Shown one piece after another: positions 27,617 through 41,158 of a DNA stretch of 45,716 bases. The number at the start of each line of letters is the position of its first letter. The stretch's first letter is position 1. The translations under genes were made by a program, and so were the position numbers. Origin of the DNA: an uncultured Mucilaginibacter sp. (GTDB lineage Bacteria > Bacteroidota > Bacteroidia > Sphingobacteriales > Sphingobacteriaceae); assembly GCF_903913935.1 (NCBI RefSeq), contig NZ_CAIWNH010000017.1:1-45716 (forward strand), read 5' to 3'. The notes beneath the pieces are model-generated. The model saw only the letters and a program-made list of their open reading frames with translations. It was not told the origin of the DNA and ran no database searches.

Positions 27617-29002
27617 TTAAATAAGGTTTGAAATAAAGCCCGGGTAGATGCCAATCAGTATAGTTACCAATGCAGCAAAACCTAAAACCAGTTGATAAAA
27701 TACCGGTACAGTAAGCTCGGCGCGTTCAGCATCACGGAAATACATGGCGATAATTACCCTGAAGTAATAAAAGATACTGATAACAGCATTTACCACTGCC
27801 AATAATACCAGCACTAACTTAAACTGCAGTAATGCGCCTGAGAACATAAAGAATTTACCAATAAACCCTGCGGTAAGCGGAATGCCCGCCAGTGAGAGCA
27901 TGGCAATAGTTAACACAACTGCCAGGAAGGGGTTCTTTTTAGCCAACCCGTTAAAGCTCTCAAAATTATCGCTGCCTGATTGTTGCTGAACAAGTATTAA
28001 GGCGCCAAAGGCGATGATAGAGGCAATAGAATAAGCAGTGGCATACATGAATACCGAATTTGCAGAACTTGCACCAAGAGCTACAATAGCAAATAATAAG
28101 TAGCCTGCATGTGATATACTCGAAAAGGCCAGCATTCGTTTAAAGCTTTGCTGGTAAAGCGCAGTAATGTTGCCAATGAAAAGGGTAATAATAGTGATTA
28201 CTAATAACACAGGCACCCAGAAATCAGATACCGGCGCAAAGCAAGCGCTGAACAGGCGTAAAAAAGCTGCAAATGCTGCTGTTTTTGCCACTGTCGACAT
28301 GAACGCTGTAATCAGGGTAGGGGAGCCTTCGTACACATCCGGAGTCCAGAAATGGAAGGGGGCCGCACCTACTTTAAAGCACAAGCCAACTACGATCAGC
28401 AAGATGCCTGCATAAAACATCGGATCGATGCTATGTGGGTTTTGAATCACCCAATTACGGATGGTTTCGAGGTTAAACGAACCTGTAGAGCCATAAATCA
28501 AGGCAATACCAAACAGCAGGAAGCCTGTTGAAAATGCCCCCATAAGGAAGTATTTTAAAGCAGCTTCATTAGAGGCGAAGTCGGTTTTTTTAATACCTGC
28601 AAGGATGTATAAGCTAACCGACATGATCTCGATGCCGATAAACAGCATAACCAGGTTGTAAAAAGAAACCATTACGATAACCCCTGCCAGTGCAAACAGG
28701 ATGATAGCATAATATTCCGCAATATGATTACTGATCTTTTCAAAATAACCGCGTGAAAGTAAGATGATCAGTATAGTCGTAATGATAGTAATGCCTGAAA
28801 ATACAGCTGAAAAATTATTAAACAGCATCATACCACTATAAATCGGGGTAGCGGTGTCAGCCGAAGTATAAGATGCTACAGTAAAGCCCAGCGCGGCAAT
28901 CAACCCAATAAGCGTTACGGGTAGTAATGCTTTTTGGGCTTTGTATAAACCCAGGTATAACAATAGTATAGGAAGAGTAGATATAATTATTAGGGTACTC
29001 AT
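27617..29002 (-). CDS. nuoN: NADH-quinone oxidoreductase subunit N
   Basis: A 461-residue antiporter-like complex I subunit with about 13-14 hydrophobic segments. Family landmarks are IEIMSVSLYILAG, NEAALKYFLMGAFSTGF, HFWTPDVYEGSPT and KRMLAFSSISHAGYLL, containing the conserved Lys and His residues of the proton channel. It is the last subunit gene of the operon; its ATG overlaps the nuoM stop (ATGA), so translation is coupled. Confidence 0.97.
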   Translation of the reverse strand: MSTLIIISTLPILLLYLGLYKAQKALLPVTLIGLIAALGFTVASYTSADTATPIYSGMMLFNNFSAVFSGITIITTILIILLSRGYFEKISNHIAEYYAIILFALAGVIVMVSFYNLVMLFIGIEIMSVSLYILAGIKKTDFASNEAALKYFLMGAFSTGFLLFGIALIYGSTGSFNLETIRNWVIQNPHSIDPMFYAGILLIVVGLCFKVGAAPFHFWTPDVYEGSPTLITAFMSTVAKTAAFAAFLRLFSACFAPVSDFWVPVLLVITIITLFIGNITALYQQSFKRMLAFSSISHAGYLLFAIVALGASSANSVFMYATAYSIASIIAFGALILVQQQSGSDNFESFNGLAKKNPFLAVVLTIAMLSLAGIPLTAGFIGKFFMFSGALLQFKLVLVLLAVVNAVISIFYYFRVIIAMYFRDAERAELTVPVFYQLVLGFAALVTILIGIYPGFISNLI

Positions 29003-30465
29003 AGTTTTTGTTGGTAAAATTTAAAATTCAAGGTTTGAACCAATTTTGTAACTGCGGCGTCTGATATATGAAGTATTGGCTGCGGATAAATGCCAATTAC
29101 AATAATAAGGGCGCAAATGATACAAAGGACCAGTTTCTCAGTACCTGTAATATCAGTAAAAGTGGCAGTTAATGCATTTGTTTCGCCTTGCATTACCTGT
29201 TTATACATCCGCAGCATATAAACCGCGCCAAGTATCATGGTTAAGCCGGCAACCGCAACAAGGTAAATGTTTACCTGGAAAACGCTGTTGAGCAATAAAA
29301 ATTCGCCAACAAAACCATTGGTAAGCGGGAGGGCTACCGTCCCTAATACGATGATTAAAAATGCCAGCGCAAATTTGGGGGCTACTTTTGCGATGCCGCC
29401 CAGCTGGCTGATCTCGCGGGTACCCAAACGGGTGCTGATAATATCCCAGATAAAGAACATACCAATAACATTAATACCATGGCTCAGCATTTGGATCATG
29501 GCGCCCTGCAAACCTTGCACTGACCAGGCAAAGATGCCGGCTGCAATTAAGCCAACGTGTGCAATGGACGAATAAGCCACCAGCCGTTTCCCATCTTTTT
29601 GCCTGATGGCAATAATAGATGCATATACAATGCCGATTACTGCCAGCACAATTACAACGCTATACCATTGCATATAGCCAAGCGGCGCGTTTGGAATTAA
29701 CCAGCGGATAACCCCATAGATGCCCATTTTTAGCATAATACCTGCTAATAGCATGGTGCCGGCTGCTGGCGCTTCGGTATAAGTATCAGGCTGCCAGGTG
29801 TGGAAAGGAAATAGCGGCATCTTTATAGCAAAAGCCAAAAAGAAAGCAAGAAAAACCCATGACTGTTGTTTGGCACCGAGCGCTAAATTATAAAAATGAA
29901 ATATGTCGTAAGTTTTTTCAGGAGTTTGCAGGTACAGGTAAATGATAGCCAGTAACATGATCAGCGAACCTGAGAAAGTATAGATAAAAAACTTGATAGT
30001 TACTTTGATACGGTTTTCGCCGCCCCACAATGAACAGATAAAATAGATAGGGATCAAAGCCGCTTCCCAACCCACATAAAATAAAAATCCGTCTAAAGCG
30101 GTAAACACTACCAGCAAGCCTGCCTGCATAAATAAAATGAGGGCATAAAATGCATTTGCATTTTTGTATTGATGCTTATAGGTGGTTAAAATGATGAGCG
30201 GAACCAATAGCGTCGTCAGCAAAACCATCATCATGCTGATCCCGTCGATCCCTGCGTTAAAATAAATACCAAATTTGGGGATCCAGGGTACATCCGTAAC
30301 AAACTGAAACGATGCATCAGGTACGAATTTGGATAAAAAAAGTGCAGCTACAACCAACTCGGCAACCGCAAAAGTTAAGGCAGCGTGTTTGGCCGCATTG
30401 TTTTTAAATAACAATACCGCAAGGGCTGCAACTACCGGCAAAAAAATTAAAATACTAACCGTCAT
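28999..30465 (-). CDS. nuoM: NADH-quinone oxidoreductase subunit M
   Basis: A 488-residue antiporter-like proton-pumping subunit with about 14 membrane segments. Landmarks are FNAGIDGISMMMVLLT, FYVGWEAALIPIYF (key Glu), FPFHTWQPDTYTEAPAAGTM and LVAYSSIAHVGLI. The start is 26 bases after the nuoL stop and it shares an ATGA overlap with nuoN. Complete in length compared with typical NuoM. Confidence 0.97.
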   Translation of the reverse strand: MTVSILIFLPVVAALAVLLFKNNAAKHAALTFAVAELVVAALFLSKFVPDASFQFVTDVPWIPKFGIYFNAGIDGISMMMVLLTTLLVPLIILTTYKHQYKNANAFYALILFMQAGLLVVFTALDGFLFYVGWEAALIPIYFICSLWGGENRIKVTIKFFIYTFSGSLIMLLAIIYLYLQTPEKTYDIFHFYNLALGAKQQSWVFLAFFLAFAIKMPLFPFHTWQPDTYTEAPAAGTMLLAGIMLKMGIYGVIRWLIPNAPLGYMQWYSVVIVLAVIGIVYASIIAIRQKDGKRLVAYSSIAHVGLIAAGIFAWSVQGLQGAMIQMLSHGINVIGMFFIWDIISTRLGTREISQLGGIAKVAPKFALAFLIIVLGTVALPLTNGFVGEFLLLNSVFQVNIYLVAVAGLTMILGAVYMLRMYKQVMQGETNALTATFTDITGTEKLVLCIICALIIVIGIYPQPILHISDAAVTKLVQTLNFKFYQQKL

Positions 30466-30491
30466 TTTATATTGTAAACGCTAAACGTTTT

Positions 30492-32396
30492 TTAAAATTT
30501 AAAAACAAGTGTCAGGAGTATCGAAATGATCCCCAATACCATCATGAAAATATAAAAACCTACATTACCGGTTTGCAAAAGGCGCAGGCCTTTGCTTGCC
30601 TCAATTGATCCTTTACCCAGTCCATTCACAATTCCGTCTATACCCATTTTATCAACCACTTTATAGGCGAAGTCTGATAGCGCATCCAGTGGTTTCCGGA
30701 TAATCATATCATACAATTCGTCTATGTAAAACTTATGGTAGGATAATTCAGCCAAAGCAGGGCGTTCCTCGGTATCGGCAACAGGCACATGGGCTTTCGT
30801 TACGTATTTGTTGAAAGCGTAAAACAAGGCTATTACGGCCCCGGCAACAGATAGTCCCATCAAGGTCCATTCTGTAGATTGTGTCAAAGGCGTCTCAGTA
30901 AAAATAGCCGCAGACTGTTTAAATACAGGCGCTAAAAACTGGGCCAGCCAATCGTGGCCACCCATAACCTCGGGAATGCCGATCAGACCGCCAACAATGG
31001 ATAATGCTGCCAAAACAATTAGGGGAATGGTCATGGTAGCAGGTGATTCATGCAAATGATGCTCCTGTTCATGTGTGCCGCGGAACTTACCGAAGAAGGT
31101 AAGATACAGCATCCTGAACATATAGAATGAGGTGAACATGGCGGTAATAACACCAATCACCCACATTGCGGGGCTTTGTGCGAACACGTGCGCCAATATC
31201 TCGTCTTTTGAAAAGAAACCAGCAAATGGAGGAATACCTGCAATAGCAATAGTACCGATCAGCATCGTTCTGTAAGTTATAGGTAACTTGTTTTTGAGGC
31301 CGCCCATTTTACGCATATCTTGTTCGCCGCTAACCGCATGGATTACCGAGCCGGCGCCAAGGAATAATAAAGCCTTAAAAAACGCGTGGGTGAGCACATG
31401 GAAGAAAGCGCCGGTATAAGCGCCAACACCCAAACCTAAAAACATATAACCCAACTGCGAAACAGTTGAATAAGCCAGTACTTTTTTAATATCAGTTTGT
31501 GTTAAAGCGATAACAGCTGCTAAAACTGCGGTTGATAAGCCCACGATGGATATGACATGCAGCGTAACCGGCGCCAAAGTAAATAAGATATTTGAGCGGG
31601 CTATCATATAAACACCAGCAGTTACCATGGTTGCGGCATGGATGAGGGCCGAAACAGGTGTCGGGCCGGCCATCGCATCCGGAAGCCAGGTAAACAATGG
31701 TAATTGTGCCGATTTACCAACAGCGCCTACAAACAGTAGTAATGTGATCAAAACGTAAGGTGTACCAGCATACTGGCTGGTGCCTGCTTGCGGGAAGATA
31801 TCTGCAAAGCTGGCACTGTGAAAATATCTCATCAGAATAAATATGCCAATGATAAAGCCCAGATCGCCGATACGGTTCATGATGAATGCTTTTTTAGCGG
31901 CGTCCGCATAATCCGGATTGGTGTACCAGAAACCGATGAGCAGGTAGGAGCACAGCCCTACACCTTCCCAGCCGATGAACATGATCAGGTAATTTGAACC
32001 TAAAACCAGTAAAAGCATAAAGAAGACGAACAGGTTAAGGTATGCGAAAAACTTGCCATAACCCGCGTCATCTTTCATATATCCTATCGAATATAAATGG
32101 ATCAGGAAACCTACACCCGTAATGATGAGCAGTATTAATGCACTTAACTGATCTACCAAAAATGCAAAAGGCAGCTTGTAAATACCTGCTTCAAACCAGG
32201 TAAACAAAGTTACATTGATAGGCGCATGTGTTGAATTGATCTGCAAGAAAAGGCCCAGGCTTAAGCCAAATGAAACCAGTACCATTAAGCTGCCCAAAAA
32301 GCCGATGAGGCCTTTTGACAGCGTGTTGCGGCCTAAGCCGTTAATAATAAAACCGGCTAACGGTAGTACAGGAATAAGCCAGATGTAATTATCCAT
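30492..32396 (-). CDS. nuoL: NADH-quinone oxidoreductase subunit L
   Basis: 634 residues, including the antiporter-like core and the C-terminal lateral helix typical of NuoL. Landmarks are LLVLGSNYLIMFIGWEGVGL, LPLFTWLPDAMAGPTPVSAL, KKVLAYSTVSQLGYMFLG and HAFFKALLFLGAGSVIH. It is the most distal proton pump. It is separated from nuoK by 112 bases that hold a GC-rich hairpin, an unusually large gap for this operon. Confidence 0.97.
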   Translation of the reverse strand: MDNYIWLIPVLPLAGFIINGLGRNTLSKGLIGFLGSLMVLVSFGLSLGLFLQINSTHAPINVTLFTWFEAGIYKLPFAFLVDQLSALILLIITGVGFLIHLYSIGYMKDDAGYGKFFAYLNLFVFFMLLLVLGSNYLIMFIGWEGVGLCSYLLIGFWYTNPDYADAAKKAFIMNRIGDLGFIIGIFILMRYFHSASFADIFPQAGTSQYAGTPYVLITLLLFVGAVGKSAQLPLFTWLPDAMAGPTPVSALIHAATMVTAGVYMIARSNILFTLAPVTLHVISIVGLSTAVLAAVIALTQTDIKKVLAYSTVSQLGYMFLGLGVGAYTGAFFHVLTHAFFKALLFLGAGSVIHAVSGEQDMRKMGGLKNKLPITYRTMLIGTIAIAGIPPFAGFFSKDEILAHVFAQSPAMWVIGVITAMFTSFYMFRMLYLTFFGKFRGTHEQEHHLHESPATMTIPLIVLAALSIVGGLIGIPEVMGGHDWLAQFLAPVFKQSAAIFTETPLTQSTEWTLMGLSVAGAVIALFYAFNKYVTKAHVPVADTEERPALAELSYHKFYIDELYDMIIRKPLDALSDFAYKVVDKMGIDGIVNGLGKGSIEASKGLRLLQTGNVGFYIFMMVLGIISILLTLVFKF

Positions 32397-32400
32397 ATAA

Positions 32401-32440
32401 GCCCCCTCTAAATCTCCCCCGGTGGGGGAGACGTTAAGAT
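32401..32440. repeat. GC-rich hairpin between nuoK and nuoL
   Basis: TCTCCCCC GG TGGGGGAGA is followed on the plus strand by CGTTAAGATTTTTTTT. The nuo genes run on the minus strand, where the hairpin is not followed by a T-run, so it is probably a mobile intergenic repeat or transcript-processing site rather than a nuo terminator. It belongs to the same hairpin style as 5634, 9438 and 13766. Confidence 0.5.
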
Positions 32441-32508
32441 TTTTTTTAAGTTAAATTTTTAAAACAAAACAAATCCGAAATCGAAATTCCGATTTCCGAA
32501 ATTATAAA

Positions 32509-32838
32509 TTACCATTTCAACCTGTTCAGCACGTTGATGTCTATCGAATTTGTATTTCGATAGATCATTACGATGATGGCAAGTCCTATTGCTACTTCTG
32601 CAGCGGCCAGCGCCATGATAAAGAATACGAAAACCTGGCCCGTGGCATCGCCGCGGTAAACGGAAAATGCGGTTAACAGCAGGTTTACCGAGTTCAGCAT
32701 CAACTCAACCGACATAAAGATCACGATCGCATTCCTGCGGATCAAAACACCGATAACCCCTATCGAAAATATGATAGAGCATAACAGGATGTAATGGTTA
32801 AGCGGAATAGCTTGTATGTTTTTTGATATGGTTTCCAT
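32509..32838 (-). CDS. nuoK: NADH-quinone oxidoreductase subunit K
   Basis: 109 residues, three membrane helices, the normal NuoK size. Family motifs include GVLIRRNAIVIFMSVELMLN, with the conserved Glu in helix 2, and FFIMALAAAEVAIGLAI with the second Glu. Its start overlaps the nuoJ stop by one base (TGATG), so the pair is translationally coupled. Confidence 0.96.
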   Translation of the reverse strand: METISKNIQAIPLNHYILLCSIIFSIGVIGVLIRRNAIVIFMSVELMLNSVNLLLTAFSVYRGDATGQVFVFFIMALAAAEVAIGLAIIVMIYRNTNSIDINVLNRLKW

Positions 32839-33335
32839 CAGGTTGTTTTTGGGTCTTTAGTTGCCAGTAAAACAGCGCCAACCATTGCTGACAGCAGCAG
32901 GATGGATGAAACTTCAAATGGCAGTAAATATTCGTTGAACAAAATTTTGCCTAAGTTTTTTACCAGGCCCAGGTTAGGGTCCTGCAGCATTACCGGTTGC
33001 GAAATTTTAAATGCTTTTAAGGCTGCAATGATGGTTGTTAAAAAGCAACCGCCGCCAACAACCGCTGCAAGCTTAATGAGGCCGGATTTGCGGGGCTCAG
33101 ACTCTTTATTCAGGTTGATCAGCATCAGGGTATATAAAAACAATACCAGGATCGCACCCATATATACAATGAAATTTACCACAGCTAAAAACTGTGCATT
33201 CATCAAAATATAATGAATAGTGAAGGTGAAAAATACTAGCACCAGGTAAAGAATGCTATGTACAGGATTTTTCGCAGAGATAACAAGTATCGAAAAAAAG
33301 ATTGACAAAAATGCGATGAAGTAAAATGTACTCAT
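32838..33335 (-). CDS. nuoJ: NADH-quinone oxidoreductase subunit J
   Basis: 165 residues with five hydrophobic segments. Landmarks are NPVHSILYLVLVFF, AQFLAVVNFIVYMGAILVLFLYTLMLIN and SSILLLSAMVGAVLLATKD, all typical of NuoJ. It forms part of the proton-translocating membrane arm and is coupled to nuoK. Fifty-nine bases separate it from nuoI. Confidence 0.95.
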   Translation of the reverse strand: MSTFYFIAFLSIFFSILVISAKNPVHSILYLVLVFFTFTIHYILMNAQFLAVVNFIVYMGAILVLFLYTLMLINLNKESEPRKSGLIKLAAVVGGGCFLTTIIAALKAFKISQPVMLQDPNLGLVKNLGKILFNEYLLPFEVSSILLLSAMVGAVLLATKDPKTT

Positions 33336-33394
33336 GGTTTATATTTACAAAATACCTTACCCTTTAAAGTGCGGGACAAAGGTATAAAACTTCT

Positions 33395-33892
33395 TTATTG
33401 ATTTAATGGGGCTTCTACTAATTTGTCCTTACCGTATATAAAATCTTTTCTCAAATAGTCTGACGTTACGTGCGGGCCATCCAGGTAAATCGCTTCTTTC
33501 GGGCAGGCTTCTTCACATAAGCCGCAAAAAATACAGCGCAGCATATTGATCTCGTAAACTGCTGCATATTTTTCTTCGCGGTATAAATGTTCTTCGCCTT
33601 TCTGGCGTTCAGCAGCTGTCATGGTGATGGCTTCTGCCGGGCATGATAAGGCGCATAAACCGCAGGCGGTGCAACGTTCCTTGCCATTCTCATCGCGTTT
33701 AAGCGAGTGCAGACCCCTGAAATTTTCAGAATATTCGCGTGTTTGCTCAGGATACTGCACGGTTACAGGTTTCCTGAAAAAGTGCCTCATGGTAATGGCC
33801 AGGCCCTGGAAAATGGCAGGCAAATAGATCCGCTCTAAAAAAGTGAGCGGCTTCGATTCCATTACTTTTCGCTTATTACTTAATGCTTCCAT
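33395..33892 (-). CDS. nuoI: NADH-quinone oxidoreductase subunit I
   Basis: 165 residues carrying two ferredoxin-type [4Fe-4S] motifs, CTACGLCALSCPAEAI and CIFCGLCEEACPKEAI, with an RCIFC region just before the second. These form clusters N6a and N6b passing electrons to NuoB. The N-terminus has about ten residues before MESKPLTF, so an internal start is possible. It lies 12 bases after nuoH. Confidence 0.96.
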   Translation of the reverse strand: MEALSNKRKVMESKPLTFLERIYLPAIFQGLAITMRHFFRKPVTVQYPEQTREYSENFRGLHSLKRDENGKERCTACGLCALSCPAEAITMTAAERQKGEEHLYREEKYAAVYEINMLRCIFCGLCEEACPKEAIYLDGPHVTSDYLRKDFIYGKDKLVEAPLNQ

Positions 33893-33904
33893 CTGTTTAA
33901 TCGC

Positions 33905-34948
33905 TTATCTGTTTAAAAAAGTAATAACAATACCGGTAATGACAATATTGGCTATTGCCAGCGGGATCAATGCTTTCCAACCCAGGTCCATTAACTGATC
34001 GTAACGGAAACGGGGGATTGTCCAGCGAACCCACATAAAAAAGAAGATAAAGAAAAATATTTTTGCGAAAAGCGCGACCACACCCAAAATAGCTACCAGG
34101 TTTGGTGAGTGTATCATATCCATAAAAGGGAAATTATAACCGCCAAAATAAAGGGTAGCCATTACCGCACCAGACACGAACATATTGATATACTCAGAAA
34201 ACAGGTAAAACCCAAGTTTCATGGAGGAGTATTCGGTGTGGTAACCACCAATCAGCTCAGTTTCGCATTCAGGAAGGTCGAAAGGGGTACGGTTGGTTTC
34301 TGCAAAAGCACAAACAATAAATAATAAAAAGCCTAATGGCTGTTTAAAAAAGTTCCAGGTAAACCAGCCATGCGCCCAAAAACCATGTTGCTGTTCAGCA
34401 ATCTGGCGCAAGCTCAGGGTACCGGTAACCAATAGGAGGGCGATGATGGCCAGGCCCATTGAAATCTCGTAGCTGATGTTTTGCGATGCTGCACGTATAG
34501 CACCTAATAACGAATATTTGTTATTGGAGGCCCAACCGCCTATCATTACCCCATAAACACCAAGCGAAACCACGCCGAGTATGTAGAGGACGCCTACATT
34601 AATATCAGTAACCTGCAAGTCAATAACATGACCGGCAATGGTTAACTGCTGCCCCCATGGGATAACAGCCGAACCGATACATGCGGTAAATATGGACAGC
34701 GAAGGGCCTGCTATAAACAGGAACTTGCTTGCGCTTGCCGGAATGATCTCTTCTTTTAAAAACATTTTACCACCATCGGCAAAGGGTTGTAAAATACCCC
34801 ATGGACCGGCGCGGTTAGGGCCAAGCCTGTCCTGAAAAAATGCGGCTACTTTACGTTCGGCATAGGTAGAGTATAAAGCAATCAGCAAGCTGATTGCAAA
34901 AATGATCACTACCAGGACAAATTTAATTATGATATCTGCAAGTTCCAT
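33905..34948 (-). CDS. nuoH: NADH-quinone oxidoreductase subunit H
   Basis: 347 residues, eight or so membrane helices. The quinone-site region is AFFQDRLGPNRAGPWGILQP, with LKEEIIPA following, and the loop FAETNRTPFDLPECETELIGGYHTEY is diagnostic. It joins the membrane and peripheral arms at the quinone chamber. Its ATG overlaps the nuoG stop (TAATG). Confidence 0.97.
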   Translation of the reverse strand: MELADIIIKFVLVVIIFAISLLIALYSTYAERKVAAFFQDRLGPNRAGPWGILQPFADGGKMFLKEEIIPASASKFLFIAGPSLSIFTACIGSAVIPWGQQLTIAGHVIDLQVTDINVGVLYILGVVSLGVYGVMIGGWASNNKYSLLGAIRAASQNISYEISMGLAIIALLLVTGTLSLRQIAEQQHGFWAHGWFTWNFFKQPLGFLLFIVCAFAETNRTPFDLPECETELIGGYHTEYSSMKLGFYLFSEYINMFVSGAVMATLYFGGYNFPFMDMIHSPNLVAILGVVALFAKIFFFIFFFMWVRWTIPRFRYDQLMDLGWKALIPLAIANIVITGIVITFLNR

Positions 34949-35949
34949 TATAAGCGTGTTTCCCGTTCAAATTGTTCTTTATTAGCCTCTATCAGCACAG
35001 GATTTGATTTTACCACCGGTAAAGGTATAAAATCATAATGATTAGAACTGATTACCGATTTATGTGATACATGGCGCGGCCCGTCAATCACCCAATCTGA
35101 CGTTTTCTTTTTGTCAAAGCGGCAAGTGTTGCAAATAAATTCTTCCACTTCGCCATATTCATCCTTACGTGCTGTTACACGCAAAACTTCTTCACCTTTA
35201 TACCAAAGGGTTACCTTACCGTTGCAATCTTTATGATCGCATTCTCTGTGCGCTTCAACTGGTTTAGTAAACCAAACACGGTTTTTAAAGCGGAAAGTTT
35301 TGTCAGTTAAGGCGCCAACAGGGCAAACGTCGATCACGTTTCCTGAAAAATCGTTATCAACGGCATGTTGTATATAGGTAGATATTTCAGAATGATCGCC
35401 ACGGTTTAAAATCCCGTGATAACGATGTTCGGTAAGCTGGTTAGCTACGAATACGCAACGATAACAAAGGATACAGCGGGTCATGTGCAGCTGTATTTTA
35501 TCGCCGATATCAATTTTTTCGAAGGTACGACGGTCAAACTCATAACGGGTTTTAACCGCGCCATGCTCAAAACCAAGGTCCTGCAGGTGGCATTCTCCTG
35601 CCTGGTCGCAAATAGGGCAATCCAGCGGGTGGTTTACCAGCAGCATTTCTACGATCCCTTTACGGGCTTCAATAACTTCGGGCGAGGTGATGTTTTGCAC
35701 TTCCATGCCATCCATAACTGTGGTGCGGCATGAAGCCACCAGTTTGGGCATAGGGCGCGGGTCTTTTTCAGATCCTTTGCTCACTTTTACCAAACAGGTA
35801 CGGCATTTACCGCCGCTATCCTTTAGTTTTGAATAATAGCACATCGCAGGCGGAACAATATCGCCACCAATCTGCCTCGCGGCGTTCAGGATGGATGTTC
35901 CCGGTTCTACTTCAATGGCAATGCCATCTATGGTTACTTTAACTGACAT
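34948..35949 (-). CDS. nuoG: NADH-quinone oxidoreductase subunit G, short form
   Basis: Only 333 residues, against about 700-900 for classical NuoG. The N-terminal iron-sulfur part is complete: a [2Fe-2S] set (Cys37, 49, 52, 74), a His-ligated [4Fe-4S] set (His107, Cys111, 114, 120) and a [4Fe-4S] set (Cys159, 162, 165, 209), plus later cysteines at 237, 242, 273 and 276. The large molybdopterin-like domain is missing. The short form is known in Bacteroidetes, so this is not a broken gene. Flanking genes overlap or abut it, consistent with a functional unit. Confidence 0.93.
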   Translation of the reverse strand: MSVKVTIDGIAIEVEPGTSILNAARQIGGDIVPPAMCYYSKLKDSGGKCRTCLVKVSKGSEKDPRPMPKLVASCRTTVMDGMEVQNITSPEVIEARKGIVEMLLVNHPLDCPICDQAGECHLQDLGFEHGAVKTRYEFDRRTFEKIDIGDKIQLHMTRCILCYRCVFVANQLTEHRYHGILNRGDHSEISTYIQHAVDNDFSGNVIDVCPVGALTDKTFRFKNRVWFTKPVEAHRECDHKDCNGKVTLWYKGEEVLRVTARKDEYGEVEEFICNTCRFDKKKTSDWVIDGPRHVSHKSVISSNHYDFIPLPVVKSNPVLIEANKEQFERETRL

Positions 35950-36021
35950 TCTATATTAGTCAAAATTATATTTTCCAACCGTCAATCGCCGCGTTTGCGA
36001 CAGCGACGCTGTTATTATTAT

Positions 36022-37383
36022 TTATGCTACAACTTCCGGTTTCGGCAGCGGATCAGCATAATGCGCCAATCCAAAATTCCTCGTTACCGCTTCCGAAGCA
36101 TTGGTTACATGCCATTCAAATTCGTCCCTGAAATGACGGATGGCGCTGGCCACCGGCCATGCAGCCGCATCGCCCAGCGGACAAATGGTATTTCCTTCAA
36201 TTTTTTTCGATACATCAACCAGCAGGTCCATGTCGCTCATTTTGCCATGGCCGTATTCTAAACGGTGCAATACTTTTTCCATCCACCCGGTACCTTCGCG
36301 GCATGGCGAGCATTGCCCGCAGCTTTCGTGGTGATAAAAACGGGTAAAATTCCATGTATTGCGTACAATGCACTGATCCTCGTCAAAGGCGATAAAACCG
36401 CCTGAGCCCATCATGGTGCCCGTAGCAAAACCACCGTCTGACAATGATTCATAGCTCATCAGGCGTGGTTGGTTATTAATGGTTTTCAGGAAAAGGTTTG
36501 CAGGAAGTATCGGTACGGATGAACCGCCGGCCACAACCGCTTTTAAACGTTTGCCATTGGCGATACCGCCGCAATATTCGTCGGAATATAAAAATTCTTC
36601 GGCTGGCAAGCCCAGGTCAATTTCATAAACGCCAGGATTTTTAACGTTGCCGCCAGCTGAGATCAATTTGGTCCCGGTACTGCGGCCAATGCCTATTTTG
36701 GCATATTCTTCCCCGCCTTCGTTGATGATCGGAACAACTGCTGCAATTGATTCCACGTTATTTACTACTGTAGGGCAGCCATATAAACCGGCAATAGCGG
36801 GAAATGGCGGTTTGATGCGTGGATTACCGCGCTTGCCTTCCAGTGATTCCAGTAAAGCGGTTTCTTCGCCGCAGATATAGGCGCCACCGCCCGGTTGCAC
36901 ATATAGTTCAAGATCGTAGCCTGAGCCTAAAATGTTTTTACCAAGGAAACCAGCATTTTTTGCTTCCGCGATTGCTTTTTCAAGGATTCTGATCTGCGGC
37001 ATCATTTCACCGCGAACGTAGATATAGGATACTTTAGCGCCAAGGGCATAGCTTGCAGTGATCATCCCTTCAATTAATAAGTGGGGGATATAGGTCATCA
37101 GGTAGCGGTCCTTAAAAGTTCCTGGTTCTGATTCATCTGCATTGCAAACCAGGTAGCGGGCAACACCTTCCGGTTTAGCCAGAAAGCTCCATTTCATCCC
37201 GGTAGGGAAACCCGCGCCGCCACGGCCGCGCAGCCCCGATTTCTTAACTTCTTCAACCACTTCGTCGGGCGACATGGTTTTTAAAGCTTTTTCAACCGAA
37301 GCATAGCCGCCTTTTGAGCGGTAAACATCAAAAGTATTGATGCCGGGTACGTTGATGTGTTCTAATAGTAATTTACGTGCCAT
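36022..37383 (-). CDS. nuoF: NADH-quinone oxidoreductase subunit F
   Basis: 453 residues. The NADH/FMN site is GLRGRGGAGFPTGMKWSF, followed by the FMN-binding NADESEPGTFKDR and GGGAYICGEETALLESLEG, and the N3 cluster lies in HESCGQCSPCREGTGW plus TICPLGDAA. It receives electrons from NADH. It lies 5 bases after the 60-residue membrane protein at 37389, so that small gene is within the operon. Confidence 0.97.
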   Translation of the reverse strand: MARKLLLEHINVPGINTFDVYRSKGGYASVEKALKTMSPDEVVEEVKKSGLRGRGGAGFPTGMKWSFLAKPEGVARYLVCNADESEPGTFKDRYLMTYIPHLLIEGMITASYALGAKVSYIYVRGEMMPQIRILEKAIAEAKNAGFLGKNILGSGYDLELYVQPGGGAYICGEETALLESLEGKRGNPRIKPPFPAIAGLYGCPTVVNNVESIAAVVPIINEGGEEYAKIGIGRSTGTKLISAGGNVKNPGVYEIDLGLPAEEFLYSDEYCGGIANGKRLKAVVAGGSSVPILPANLFLKTINNQPRLMSYESLSDGGFATGTMMGSGGFIAFDEDQCIVRNTWNFTRFYHHESCGQCSPCREGTGWMEKVLHRLEYGHGKMSDMDLLVDVSKKIEGNTICPLGDAAAWPVASAIRHFRDEFEWHVTNASEAVTRNFGLAHYADPLPKPEVVA

Positions 37384-37388
37384 TACTG

Positions 37389-37571
37389 TTAATAAATTTT
37401 GCCGGTTAATTTATACCCGGCTATATGTTGTGCCGCACAATTTGACAGAATTAATACGGTAATTAAACCTATGATTAAATTGTTATGCGGCTGAATATTC
37501 CAAAACAAAAACAACATGATCCCGCTGATTAAAGCCGAATCCCATACAATTAATTTTATTCTGTTGTTCAT
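37389..37571 (-). CDS. Small two-span membrane protein in the nuo operon (A)
   Basis: 60 residues, starting at ATG 37571, with two hydrophobic segments (about 7-25 and 32-48) and a short basic tail ending HIAGYKLTGKIY. It lies 31 bases after the companion gene at 37603 and 5 bases before nuoF, so it is transcribed inside the complex I operon. Its C-terminus shares a (H/Q)HI-x2-Y-x2-T-x2-Y pattern with the companion. No known family recognised. It may be an accessory or assembly subunit. Confidence 0.65.
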   Translation of the reverse strand: MNNRIKLIVWDSALISGIMLFLFWNIQPHNNLIIGLITVLILSNCAAQHIAGYKLTGKIY

Positions 37572-37602
37572 TTATTTTTTATCTACTTATAACGTCGCCA
37601 GG

Positions 37603-37785
37603 CTAATACAAGCGTTTTGTATGCCTGTAGTGGTTGATATGCCTGATAATGCTGCTGGCAACAGCAATAATTATCAGGAACTTCAGGAACACCGGTATTT
37701 GATCGATGCTTTCGTTGGTTAAATTGATAACAGCTACGGTTACAACCAATAAAGTATCTGACACAACTAAAGCTGTTCCTGTCAT
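37603..37785 (-). CDS. Small two-span membrane protein in the nuo operon (B)
   Basis: 60 residues from ATG 37785, two bases after the nuoE stop in TAATAATG, so translation is probably coupled. Hydrophobic segments span about 6-20 and 30-48, and the tail RHINHYRHTKRLY echoes the neighbour at 37389. The two look like a diverged tandem pair. No domain recognised. Their fixed place between nuoE and nuoF suggests a link to complex I or its membrane environment. Confidence 0.65.
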   Translation of the reverse strand: MTGTALVVSDTLLVVTVAVINLTNESIDQIPVFLKFLIIIAVASSIIRHINHYRHTKRLY

Positions 37786-37787
37786 TA

Positions 37788-38312
37788 TTAATTTTTGCCT
37801 TTCGCTTTTAATTCCGCAATCAGCTTATCAACCCCCTCGTTTGTTAAATTTTCATAAAATGTATATTCGGGACCAATTTGTAAAACCGGGCCGAAACCGC
37901 AGGCAGCAAGGCATTCAACACCCCGCCAGCTAAACAGGCCGTCGGAAGTAACTTCACCTTCCTTAACGCCCAGTTTCTCTTCAATATGGTCCATTATTTT
38001 TTCAGCGCCCACCAGGCAGCAAGGGCCGGTGCGGCAAACCTCCAATACGTATTTGCCTTGCGGGCGCATAAAGTACATGGAGTAAAAAGTGGCTACTTCG
38101 TATACTTCAATCGATTGGATACTGAGGTATTCAGCAACAGTATCCATAGCAGCTGCGCTAAGCCAACCCAATTCAGCCTGTACAAGGTGCAAAATGGGCA
38201 ATAAAGCCGATTTTTGCTTCCCTTCGGGATAACGGCTTACGATTTCATCGAACTTTTTTAACAGTTCCGGCGAAAATTCAACCGGCGCCTGGGTTTCTTC
38301 AACTCTAAGCAT
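37788..38312 (-). CDS. nuoE: NADH-quinone oxidoreductase subunit E
   Basis: 174 residues with a thioredoxin-like [2Fe-2S] domain. The cluster ligands lie in CRTGPCCLVG and CLAACGFGPVLQI (N1a). The N-terminal helical part, LLPILHLVQAELGWLS, is typical of NuoE. It overlaps the end of nuoD by 8 bases and is followed by the small membrane proteins. Confidence 0.95.
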   Translation of the reverse strand: MLRVEETQAPVEFSPELLKKFDEIVSRYPEGKQKSALLPILHLVQAELGWLSAAAMDTVAEYLSIQSIEVYEVATFYSMYFMRPQGKYVLEVCRTGPCCLVGAEKIMDHIEEKLGVKEGEVTSDGLFSWRGVECLAACGFGPVLQIGPEYTFYENLTNEGVDKLIAELKAKGKN

Positions 38313-39516
38313 CTAACTCTCCGGCTATAACGTTTAAACTACTCATGTTAATTATCGCATCTGATAACAGCATGCCGCGGCTCATCGGCGCGTACATCTG
38401 GTAATTAATGAAGCTTGGCCGGCGGAAATGCAAACGGTAAGGCGAGCGTCCGCCGTCGTTTACCAGGTAAAAGCCCAATTCGCCGTTACCACCTTCAACC
38501 GAGTGGTAAACTTCTGTATTTGGTGTAGGTATTTCGCCCATCACTATTTTAAAGTGATAGATCAGCGCTTCCATATTATTATATACATCCTCTTTCGGAG
38601 GCAGGTAAAAGTCAGGTACATCCGCGTGGAAAATATCCGAAGGCTCGTTTTCAAGTTTAACCAATGCCTGCTCAATCAGGCGCAAGCTTTGCCACATTTC
38701 TTCCTGGCGTACCAGGTAACGGCTGTAAACATCGCCGTTTTCGCCCACGGGTACTTCAAAATCAAATTCCTCATATGAGCAATAAGGGTTCATTGCCCTT
38801 ACATCATAATCAACACCTGTTGCACGTAATATCGGCCCGCTCCAGCTGTAGCTAATCGCGTCTTCGGCGGTTACTGCTGCAACATCCTTGGTACGGTCAA
38901 TAAATATGCGGTTACGTTTGGTGAGGTTTTCAAACTCCTTTAAAACAACCGGGTATTCTTTTAAAAACTTACGCAGTTTTCTGAAAGCGATGGCATTGAA
39001 ATTACGTTCGAAACCGCCTATACGGCCAATATTGGTGGTAAGGCGCGAACCGCAAACCTCTTCGTAAATTTCATAGATAGCCTCGCGGTATTCCATTACG
39101 TAAAAGAAGCCTGTAGCGGCACCTGTATCAACAGCGAGTACGCTGTTACAGATCAAATGGTCGGCAATACGTGCCAGTTCCATAATAATGATCCGCAGGT
39201 AATCAACACGTTTTGGCGTTTGTATGCCCAGTAATTTTTCAACTGTCATGTGCCAGCCCATGTTATTGATGGGCGATGAGCAGTAGTTTAACCTGTCGGT
39301 TAATGGGGTGATCTGGTAAAACGGCCGGTGTTCGGCAATTTTTTCAAAAGCACGGTGGATGTAGCCTATGGTGGATACGCCGCTTACAATTCTTTCGCCA
39401 TCCAGTTGCAGCACATTTTGGAATACACCATGTGTGGCAGGGTGGGTTGGGCCCAGGTTAAGGGTTGAAAGCTCGGTTTGCGGATCGTTATCTGTATATA
39501 CCGGATGGTTCTGCAT
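38305..39516 (-). CDS. nuoD: NADH-quinone oxidoreductase subunit D (49 kDa)
   Basis: 403 residues. Family landmarks are LNLGPTHPATHGVFQ (quinone-site His), YIHRAFEKIAEHRPFYQI, the diagnostic R-x-G region GSRLTTNIGRIGG, and a late LNVIAGELDA. It forms the quinone-binding chamber with NuoB. It is separate from nuoC here, unlike the NuoCD fusion of enterobacteria. The downstream nuoE overlaps its 3' end. Confidence 0.96.
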   Translation of the reverse strand: MQNHPVYTDNDPQTELSTLNLGPTHPATHGVFQNVLQLDGERIVSGVSTIGYIHRAFEKIAEHRPFYQITPLTDRLNYCSSPINNMGWHMTVEKLLGIQTPKRVDYLRIIIMELARIADHLICNSVLAVDTGAATGFFYVMEYREAIYEIYEEVCGSRLTTNIGRIGGFERNFNAIAFRKLRKFLKEYPVVLKEFENLTKRNRIFIDRTKDVAAVTAEDAISYSWSGPILRATGVDYDVRAMNPYCSYEEFDFEVPVGENGDVYSRYLVRQEEMWQSLRLIEQALVKLENEPSDIFHADVPDFYLPPKEDVYNNMEALIYHFKIVMGEIPTPNTEVYHSVEGGNGELGFYLVNDGGRSPYRLHFRRPSFINYQMYAPMSRGMLLSDAIINMSSLNVIAGELDA

Positions 39517-39521
39517 TGCTT

Positions 39522-40025
39522 TTATCTTCCAAAAAAATAATCTTTTTTATCAACACGGTTAGGGTCTTCCAGCGGGAATTCTTTTCGCATCGGGAAGGCC
39601 GTCATGTCGTCAACATTTAATATCCTTCGTAAGTCAGGGTGCCCGTCAAATATCACCCCAAAAAGGTCATACGTTTCGCGTTCCATCCAGTTGGCGCCGT
39701 TCCAGATATTGGTGGCGGTTGGGATATGCACATCGGCATCTTCCAAAAATACCTTTATCCTTCCGCGTACATTATTTACCAGGCTATGCAAATGGTAAAT
39801 TACCCCGATAGGTTTTGGCAGTTCGGGGTAATGGATAGCGGTAATATCTGTTAAATAAATAAACTGTAATGCGGCATCGTTTTTTAACCAGGTTAGCAGA
39901 TCAATGATCTGGTCGCGACCGGTCTCAAAGGTTAATAAGCCAAATGGTTCGCCAAGGAGGGTTACCTGGTCACTATATTTTTCGCTGATCTTTTTTACAA
40001 GATCTTCGTTTGTTAATTTACCCAT
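39522..40025 (-). CDS. nuoC: NADH-quinone oxidoreductase subunit C (30 kDa)
   Basis: 167 residues, the size of a stand-alone NuoC. Conserved segments are ANWMERETYDLFGVIFDGHPDLRRIL and the C-terminal FPMRKEFPLEDPNRVDKKDYFFGR. Its ATG overlaps the nuoB stop (TAATG). Stand-alone C next to D is the common non-fused arrangement. Confidence 0.95.
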   Translation of the reverse strand: MGKLTNEDLVKKISEKYSDQVTLLGEPFGLLTFETGRDQIIDLLTWLKNDAALQFIYLTDITAIHYPELPKPIGVIYHLHSLVNNVRGRIKVFLEDADVHIPTATNIWNGANWMERETYDLFGVIFDGHPDLRRILNVDDMTAFPMRKEFPLEDPNRVDKKDYFFGR

Positions 40026-40567
40026 TATTGAATTCCGTATGAAGCTAGTAGTTCCTGATATTTTGGCTCATTCCTGCGGCGCAAAGTTTCTGATTGCACC
40101 AGTTTTTGAATTTGTATGAAGCCGTCAATAATGGCTTCGGGGCGTGGCGGACAGCCGGGCACGTAAACGTCAACCGGTATCACTTCGTCAATTCCCTGTA
40201 AAACAGAATAAGTATCAAAAATACCGCCGCTTGATGCGCAGGCGCCAACGGCCATTACCCAGCGTGGTTCAGCCATTTGCAGGTAAACCTGGCGCAAAAC
40301 AGGGCCCATTTTTTTGGAGATGGTACCCATCACCATTAAAAGGTCGGCCTGGCGGGGCGAAAAGCTTAACCTTTCGGCGCCAAAACGGGCCAGGTCATAA
40401 TGTGGCGACATAGTAGCCATAAATTCGATCCCGCAGCATGAAGTAGCAAATGGCAGTGGCCATAATGAATATGAACGCGCTAAACCTATTGCTTTATCAA
40501 CCGAAGTAGCAAAGAAACCTGCTCCTTCTACGCCCGCAGGGGCATCAACTAACTGAATTTCACTCAT
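40025..40567 (-). CDS. nuoB: NADH-quinone oxidoreductase subunit B
   Basis: 180 residues. The N2 cluster ligands are the tandem cysteines of ATSCCGIEFMA, a Cys in VGACASSGG and the final VPGCPPRPEAI. It hands electrons to quinone with NuoD. A candidate promoter lies 46 bases upstream of its ATG (40613-40620), because 191 bases separate it from nuoA. Confidence 0.96.
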   Translation of the reverse strand: MSEIQLVDAPAGVEGAGFFATSVDKAIGLARSYSLWPLPFATSCCGIEFMATMSPHYDLARFGAERLSFSPRQADLLMVMGTISKKMGPVLRQVYLQMAEPRWVMAVGACASSGGIFDTYSVLQGIDEVIPVDVYVPGCPPRPEAIIDGFIQIQKLVQSETLRRRNEPKYQELLASYGIQ

Positions 40568-40612
40568 GATCTATATCAAACAAAAACCCGTCCTAAATTG
40601 ACTATGTGGTTG

Positions 40613-40620
40613 CAAATTTA
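40613..40620 (-). promoter_or_regulatory. Candidate Bacteroidetes -7 box upstream of nuoB
   Basis: On the minus strand this reads TAAATTTG, an exact match to the Bacteroidetes TAnnTTTG consensus, ending 45 bases before the nuoB ATG. A clear -33 TTG element is not obvious. It could start the nuoB-N transcript separately from nuoA. Confidence 0.35.
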
Positions 40621-40758
40621 CAATAAATAACTAATGTATAAGATACACTTTGCAATATGGTATTTATATTTAGAATTAGTCTAAACAGGATAATTTAACT
40701 GCAAGCTTATATAAATAACCCCAGGTAGAGGGTGTATTAATACCAGATTGGACAAATG

Positions 40759-41130
40759 TTAATCCCAGTCAAGTGCGCCTTTTTTTATAACATAGATAAA
40801 GCCCAGCAGCAGGGTGCCCATAAAAATGAACATTTCTATCATGCCTTGCTGGCCAAGGTCCTTAAAGTTGACTGCCCAGGGGTACATGAAAATTACTTCC
40901 ACATCAAACAATACAAATAGGATGGCTACCAGGAAATATTTGATGGAGATAGGGGTACGCGCGTTACCGATTACCTCGATACCCGATTCAAAGGTGGTTA
41001 ACTTATCTTTCGTTTTGCGTGTGGGGCCCAATTTATGGGTAAAAAACATGGTGACAACCACAAAGGCCAATGCCACGATCATTTGAAAAATGATGGGCAA
41101 ATAATTTACGGGCAAACTATGTATTTCCAT
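40759..41130 (-). CDS. nuoA: NADH-quinone oxidoreductase subunit A
   Basis: A 123-residue, three-helix membrane subunit. It has FESGIEVIGNARTPISIKYFLVAILFVLFDVEVIFMYPWA, the strongly conserved NuoA core. I chose ATG 41130 (MEIHSLPV) over a TTG five codons upstream. A TATATTTG box on the minus strand lies only five bases before the ATG. The 191-base gap to nuoB is unusual for an otherwise tightly packed operon. Confidence 0.95.
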   Translation of the reverse strand: MEIHSLPVNYLPIIFQMIVALAFVVVTMFFTHKLGPTRKTKDKLTTFESGIEVIGNARTPISIKYFLVAILFVLFDVEVIFMYPWAVNFKDLGQQGMIEMFIFMGTLLLGFIYVIKKGALDWD

Positions 41131-41158
41131 GTTGCAAATATACAAACGGAACGATAAT

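Follow-up and report, generated by a model that had tools for sequence, protein, structure and literature searches.

Small predicted membrane proteins encoded at the nuoE–nuoF junction of the complex I operon in one family of Bacteroidota

Results

Two small genes are located between nuoE and nuoF

The window, a stretch of 45,716 nucleotides from an uncultured Mucilaginibacter sp. (contig NZ_CAIWNH010000017.1), carries a complete nuoA–nuoN cluster on its minus strand, in which all 14 core genes are present besides two small open reading frames, ORF1 and ORF2:

27617..41145, minus strand: nuoA–nuoN cluster enclosing ORF1 and ORF2 (nuoA at 41145, nuoN at 27617)
37788..38312, minus strand: nuoE, one border of the junction (Pfam PF01257, 2.9e-51; TIGR01958, 169.6 bits)
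37603..37785, minus strand: ORF1, predicted small membrane protein of subtype A, 60 aa, two predicted membrane segments, C-terminus RHINHYRHTKRLY; 72 bits against profile A1, of which it is itself a row
37389..37571, minus strand: ORF2, predicted small membrane protein of subtype B, 60 aa, paralogue of ORF1, C-terminus HIAGYKLTGKIY; 78.7 bits against profile A1, of which it is itself a row
36022..37383, minus strand: nuoF, other border of the junction (TIGR01959, 588.7 bits)

The subtypes of ORF1 and ORF2 were called with HMMs that have both proteins among their training rows. Apart from nuoE and nuoF, the nuo names are presumptive, being assigned by gene order, length and recall; the same A-to-N order was seen by tblastn in 80 other operons, with nuoA missing in one cut contig. 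The nearest named matches of the window's NuoF were those of Pedobacter frigoris (88%) and Olivibacter (87%), which supports placement in the Sphingobacteriaceae. A preliminary description had placed two genes of 60 residues each two bases past nuoE and five bases before nuoF, and the coordinates agree, the spacers between nuoE and ORF1, ORF1 and ORF2, and ORF2 and nuoF being 2, 31 and 5 bases.

At least one open reading frame of 58 aa or more was found on this strand in 629 of 5000 dinucleotide shuffles of the 404-base interval, and two non-overlapping ones in none. Chance occurrence was rejected on the basis of these shuffles and of homologues elsewhere; as described below, homologues are present in other genomes and purifying selection acts upon them, which confirms that ORF1 and ORF2 are real genes, as had first been proposed. 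An RNA element in the interval was also rejected, as no Rfam match at gathering scores was obtained across positions 36800–38400, and a plasmid origin was rejected, as no similar DNA was found in PLSDB.

ORF1 and ORF2 represent one family of 60-residue proteins

Searches of 60 relatives with ORF1 and with ORF2 converged on the same genes in some of them (e.g., G022 and G032), and the two are paralogues of one family. They had been described as diverged, and are indeed only 19% identical; the identity of ORF1 to the other subtypes defined below is only about 15–27%. The stretch between nuoE and nuoF was taken from every genus genome with a usable nuoE and its spacing was measured, and profile A1 was built from 44 proteins found in these gaps. 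The reading of gaps from which homologues were collected left out gaps of fewer than 60 bases, duplicates (L001–L019 and L059), the paralogue loci L127–L128, and L169–L208 except L172; L202 is without nuoE. Family proteins are about 59–63 residues long, the start being uncertain in a few.

Neither ORF1 nor ORF2 had a Pfam or NCBIfam match at E ≤ 1. For the family, no Nuo family was present among the Pfam and NCBIfam matches listed, in keeping with the earlier statement that the two proteins match none of the 14 Nuo subunits, whose core genes are present separately. The family profile matched no PDB chain below E 0.5, and its PHROG matches were weak and scattered. With PADLOC, ORF1 had no match, and two of 44 family members weakly matched one 4TM effector model (best E 0.0065). 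Identity with a known family was therefore rejected, since Pfam, NCBIfam, PHROGs, PADLOC and PDB gave scattered weak matches at most. Among the titles and abstract openings listed in literature searches, mainly outside the subscription journals, none describes the family.

Conserved residues and predicted topology

Conservation was assessed over 56 distinct proteins drawn from 81 operons, after exclusion of one broken fragment. In all of them (56/56) the first hydrophobic segment contains an Asp and the second has a His at its end, with a Y/F four residues further on; a K/R and a terminal Y/F are likewise present in 56/56. ORF1 and ORF2 match profile A1 and carry all of these residues (Asp in helix 1, His and aromatic at the end of helix 2, K/R, terminal Y/F). 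Column averages of the 56 proteins displayed two hydrophobic stretches followed by a basic C-terminus, so that the two membrane segments and basic tail first noticed in the window's pair can be seen across the family.

Most members have K/R near the N-terminus, and the C-terminus is strongly basic. Applied to this arrangement, the positive-inside rule suggests that both ends of the 60-residue proteins lie in the cytoplasm. AlphaFold2 gave one long helix for ORF1 in a run without a real alignment (pLDDT 82, pTM 0.39), and a low-confidence two-helix hairpin for ORF2 aligned with ORF1 only (pLDDT 68, pTM 0.38). As both models are poor, the proposed hairpin rests on hydropathy and not on the models.

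The family is patchily distributed and occupies a single position

A NuoE match was obtained in 109 of 120 genomes of the genus; G028 was dropped because its sole match was a 28% paralogue, leaving 108 genomes, the window included. At the nuoE–nuoF junction, 58 of these had no copy of the family, 29 had one, 19 had two and 2 had three, with gaps of 179–242, 368–410 and 638–649 bases for one, two and three copies, respectively. When the 120 whole genomes were searched, 73 strong profile matches were found in 50 of them (E ≤ 3.2e-14), and all 73 were located no more than 520 bases downstream of nuoE and on its strand; the remaining genus matches listed were scattered and had E > 0.003.

The search of the taxonomic family covered 201 genomes, of which a count of the listing places 166 in other genera. 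Strong matches were found in only three of these, belonging to two genera: G184 with two copies, and G168 and G193 with one each. All four copies were again between nuoE and nuoF. Strong matches within and beyond the genus are thus linked exclusively to the complex I operon. As nuoE was present in 192 of the 201 genomes, the absence of the small proteins from so many of them is not due to a missing operon. Among 300 genomes of the order, a single further match was obtained, a weak one (G316, 7.3e-5); it is situated in a 183-aa frame, neither nuoE nor nuoF is present in the surrounding 5.5 kb, and it was taken as chance. Among 395 genomes of the class, matches were seen only in the window and its closest relative. 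Both searches scored only the best 16–21 first-look candidates of each genome, which makes absence less certain at these levels.

In 47 of the 58 non-carriers, nuoE and nuoF were no more than 60 bases apart. The gap was longer in the other 11, of which four had an unrelated gene of 107–112 residues and seven had no forward frame of 35 residues or more, the sequence being mostly repeat-like. As a check, it had been proposed to look for the same pair between nuoE and nuoF in other Sphingobacteriaceae. The family does recur there, in 50 of the 108 genus genomes and three of other genera, but the exact arrangement of A then B alone is found in only 4 of the 108, the window included. This patchy presence indicates that complex I genes persist without the 60-residue proteins.

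Subtypes and their combinations

HMMs distinguished four subtypes, A, B, C and D, with a margin of at least 8 bits for each of the 73 genus copies; the models had been trained on 27 members picked from the family tree, many of which are among the 73. Read in gene order, the carriers had A (20 genomes), D+A (8), B (7), A+C (5), A+B (4), C (2), A+A (2; L273 and L274) and C+A+B (2). Type A was present in all 21 multi-copy genomes, different types were combined in 19 of these 21, and type D (8 genomes) never occurred without type A. As the combinations cluster on the Nuo tree, they reflect a handful of events and not 21. Outside the genus, the best-fitting subtypes were A and B for the two copies of G184, B for that of G168 and, less clearly, C for that of G193 (38.1 bits, against 30.0 for A). 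The fit of these copies to A, B and C points to a subtype split that predates the genus, and we read at least three of the four subtypes as older than it on these scores.

Selection and evolutionary history

When compared with the window's two closest relatives, dN/dS was 0.06 and 0.12 for ORF1, and 0.13 and 0.41 for ORF2. Other close pairs of 60-residue genes mostly gave 0.04–0.32, with 0.53 for L268/L275. In most pairs NuoE and NuoF were under tighter constraint than the small proteins, the mean divergence of which was about three times that of the Nuo proteins. Their distances nevertheless followed Nuo distances, with Mantel r of 0.78 for type A (32 rows) and 0.84 for type B (11 rows).

The Nuo tree was made from 11 concatenated Nuo proteins (81 rows, 3810 columns) and comprised the window, 78 other genus genomes and two of genus g26, one of which (L293, a carrier) has a broken copy. 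Its genus rows represent 40 of the 50 carriers and 39 of the 58 non-carriers; operons were chosen by size of contig, and non-carriers were also thinned for near-duplicates. Presence of the family requires at least 11 changes on this tree. Taken together, the distribution and subtypes suggest that the family has long been present, that its subtypes separated early and that it was lost repeatedly, and exchange between species may also form part of the history. A type B copy after nuoE in G168 (L223/L293) has an in-frame TAG in its first helix and is apparently decaying.

One instance of replacement was resolved at the nucleotide level. The Nuo proteins of operons L273 and L274 are 99.4% identical, with no amino-acid difference in NuoE, and the first small gene has been kept (dN/dS 0.15). 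The body of the second small gene, however, has a dS of 1.25 and a dN of 0.52, with 43–52% identity in 60-base windows, while the adjoining windows on either side are 90–100% identical. A second gene so diverged between near-identical flanks indicates that one copy was replaced by a diverged relative. The event, seen for L059/L273 and L062/L274 between flanks that are 88–100% identical in 60-base windows, is a clean case of a single 60-residue gene being exchanged as a cassette.

Co-variation with the Nuo core and other genes at nuo junctions

Nuo columns tracking presence of the family were sought across nine carrier/non-carrier pairs, hand-picked from the tree, and compared with flipped controls. 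For all 14 subunits, no excess was found: 44, 5 and 1 columns fitted at least 4, 5 and 6 pairs, against control means of 42.6, 6.7 and 0.76, and 39, 77 and 46 of 100 controls, respectively, were as high as observed. The same comparison on 11 subunits with 60 sampled flips (100 were sampled for 14 subunits) was likewise negative. Rows were missing for NuoA (2), NuoB (1) and NuoG (5) of 81. As the columns were no more numerous than in the flips, no co-adaptation of the core was seen, and nine pairs give this comparison low power.

Other small genes are also carried within nuo operons. Cargo was present between nuoF and nuoG in L253, L254, L289, L306, L309, L312–L315, L317, L321, L326, L329 and L330, which we take to be Uma2-like, gamma-glutamylcyclotransferase-like and four-helix-bundle proteins, and between nuoM and nuoN in L278, L301, L310, L319 and L332, presumably four-helix-bundle proteins. 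Some of the gamma-glutamylcyclotransferase-like genes have a partner of 102–104 residues. Eight further nuoF–nuoG gaps of 420–459 bases had no ATG frame of 55 residues or more, and that of L323 had such a frame in reverse only. This cargo has no evident link to complex I, so position alone is weak evidence of a role there; an exclusive position is stronger.

At the nuoE–nuoF junction itself, a second, unrelated basic family of 107–112 residues (MASQKDKDYH...DKRRRNxTRKSNQ) was seen in L032, L061, L073, L079 and L339 (G274). The four of these junctions that were read had no 60-residue gene, and for G274 none was among the matches listed. The larger family was found nowhere beyond nuoE–nuoF in the 120 genus and 201 family genomes, and for the members tried Pfam gave nothing above noise and PDB nothing below E 1. 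With two private families at one site, it is a real alternative to a role in complex I that this junction collects such small genes. Two further frames were noted between nuoE and nuoF: one of 71 residues in L142, a Bacteroidetes MAG outside the family, which differs from the 60-residue proteins, has two hydrophobic stretches by eye and gave no Pfam match above noise; and one of 215 residues in L168, which we take to be SAM methyltransferase-like.

Discussion

The sequence evidence points to a genuine family of small proteins, linked to complex I within a single family of Bacteroidota. Confinement to one junction, selection at the protein level and invariant residues make a protein dedicated to complex I the best reading, and its lack in more than half of the genus genomes marks it as optional. 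We therefore consider, with a probability of about one half, that the 60-residue proteins may be optional small membrane proteins dedicated to complex I, most likely accessory subunits or stabilisers. The preliminary description had suggested accessory or assembly factors, or else a regulatory pair. Exclusive linkage favours the first suggestion, which is tempered by the lack of any copy in 58 of 108 genus genomes; no support was found for a regulatory pair.

In the mechanism we envisage, each protein would most likely fold as a helical hairpin whose two ends face the cytoplasm. The Asp, one turn into helix 1, and the His, at the cytoplasmic end of helix 2, would lie at a similar depth and could pair, and the basic aromatic tail (~H-I-N-Y-Y-K-x-T-G/K-K-I-Y) would lie on the cytoplasmic face of the membrane, on the side of the peripheral arm. 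Probably translated from the NuoE/NuoF message, the proteins would bind to complex I, or to an intermediate of its assembly, and stabilise the enzyme or its attachment to the membrane, much as TorE and NapE do for respiratory enzymes of other kinds. The four subtypes might then correspond to non-identical partners or slots, with type A as the common partner.

Several results count against a role in complex I. The pair L268/L275 evolves fast (0.53), a copy was replaced between L273 and L274, the ORF1 model is not a hairpin, 58 of 108 genus genomes are without a copy, the core co-variation comparison was negative, and unrelated cargo is carried at other nuo junctions. Some of these observations are what would be expected of independent small membrane proteins, such as immunity, phage exclusion or toxin-like proteins, that reside in a strongly expressed operon and are exchanged as cassettes: presence is patchy with at least 11 changes, copy number ranges from 0 to 3, the order of types varies, a single copy was replaced in near-identical operons, and nuoF–nuoG and nuoM–nuoN hold unrelated genes. 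A free cassette, however, would be expected elsewhere in 120 genomes, and 73/73 strong matches were at one junction; furthermore, types A and B mostly track Nuo distances (Mantel r 0.78 and 0.84), PADLOC offered a single family, to which 2 of 44 members had weak matches (best E 0.0065), and the PHROG matches were weak and scattered. We regard parked cassettes as an unlikely explanation, though one to be taken seriously.

It was also possible that the proteins are dedicated assembly factors, which act on an intermediate, for example in membrane docking of the E-F-G module, and then leave. The evidence from linkage and conservation is equal to that for a bound subunit, membrane-like proteins placed among genes of the peripheral, NADH-oxidising part would make sense for such a task, and dispensability suits a helper. 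No known assembly factor, however, was among the family-scan matches listed, and this explanation is likewise judged unlikely.

An origin or survival by local tandem duplication, with a minor or conditional role, weak selection and frequent loss, would account for the many presence changes (at least 11), the broken G168 copy with its in-frame TAG and a mean divergence about three times that of Nuo. It is harder to reconcile with residues that are invariant across very diverged subtypes and with a subtype split that predates the genus, and we think it improbable. That the genes are translated spacers which tune nuoF translation or couple it to nuoE, with a protein product of little weight, is suggested by genes that in most carriers start and stop a few bases from nuoE and nuoF or overlap nuoE, but is very improbable given that dN/dS well below 1 in most pairs and residues kept in 56/56 require a working protein, that 47 of 58 non-carriers have nuoE and nuoF within 60 bases and so need no spacer, and that no Rfam element is present in the interval.

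If the proteins are indeed dedicated to complex I, a more speculative extension would see them as a modular, swappable add-on, in which a type A hairpin and a lineage-specific B, C or D partner sit close to where the membrane arm meets the cytoplasm, and Asp and His (and Tyr) are at the depth of menaquinone entry. On this view, fast evolution, gain and loss, and swapping would be signs that the quinone site is being tuned, or that the enzyme is being shielded from competitors' complex I inhibitors. We hold this to be a long shot.

As there are close species with and without the proteins, their role could be measured by simple deletion and transplantation. The profile also provides a diagnostic for dozens of proteins that have had no family, and the case shows a single junction of a conserved operon gaining, losing and exchanging small genes.

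Very small membrane subunits are known from respiratory or related complexes, such as CydX of cytochrome bd and NdhP and NdhQ of cyanobacterial NDH-1. The 60-residue family resembles these in size and setting, but they are single-helix proteins, whereas two helices are predicted here, and no CydX or Ndh family was among the Pfam and NCBIfam matches listed for it. No family model of the extra complex I subunits of Paracoccus or Thermus was among those matches either, nor was a NapE or TorE family present among 25 of the 26 weak Pfam matches or the seven NCBIfam matches.

According to the part of the source available, bacterial complex I carries extras such as NDUFS4, NDUFS6, NDUFA12 and PIMT in Paracoccus and Nqo15 and Nqo16 in Thermus, and the three ancestral ones stabilise the N-module and are absent from most prokaryotic enzymes (PMC11522691). 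The 60-residue proteins would likewise be lineage-specific extras on a 14-subunit bacterial enzyme, but the Paracoccus and Thermus extras are on the peripheral arm or heel, and in that part of the source none is described as a small two-helix membrane protein (PMC11522691). If bound to complex I, the family would thus add small, optional, membrane-embedded extra subunits to an enzyme whose extras, as that part of the account has them, are on the peripheral arm or heel (PMC11522691).

The closest parallel in kind is offered by TorE, a basic membrane protein of 56 aa encoded beside its respiratory enzyme, and by the TorE/NapE homologues, operon-encoded small membrane proteins that strengthen a respiratory complex and occur in no more than about 43% and 68% of the respective systems (PMC6134056). 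The 60-residue proteins are also small and basic, encoded beside respiratory genes and present in part of the systems; unlike them, TorE is described as a predicted single helix with a c-type cytochrome partner (PMC6134056), whereas the present family has two predicted helices, several subtypes and a place in the complex I operon. From these comparisons the family appears to be new as a family, and of a known kind, that of the optional small membrane helpers of respiratory enzymes.
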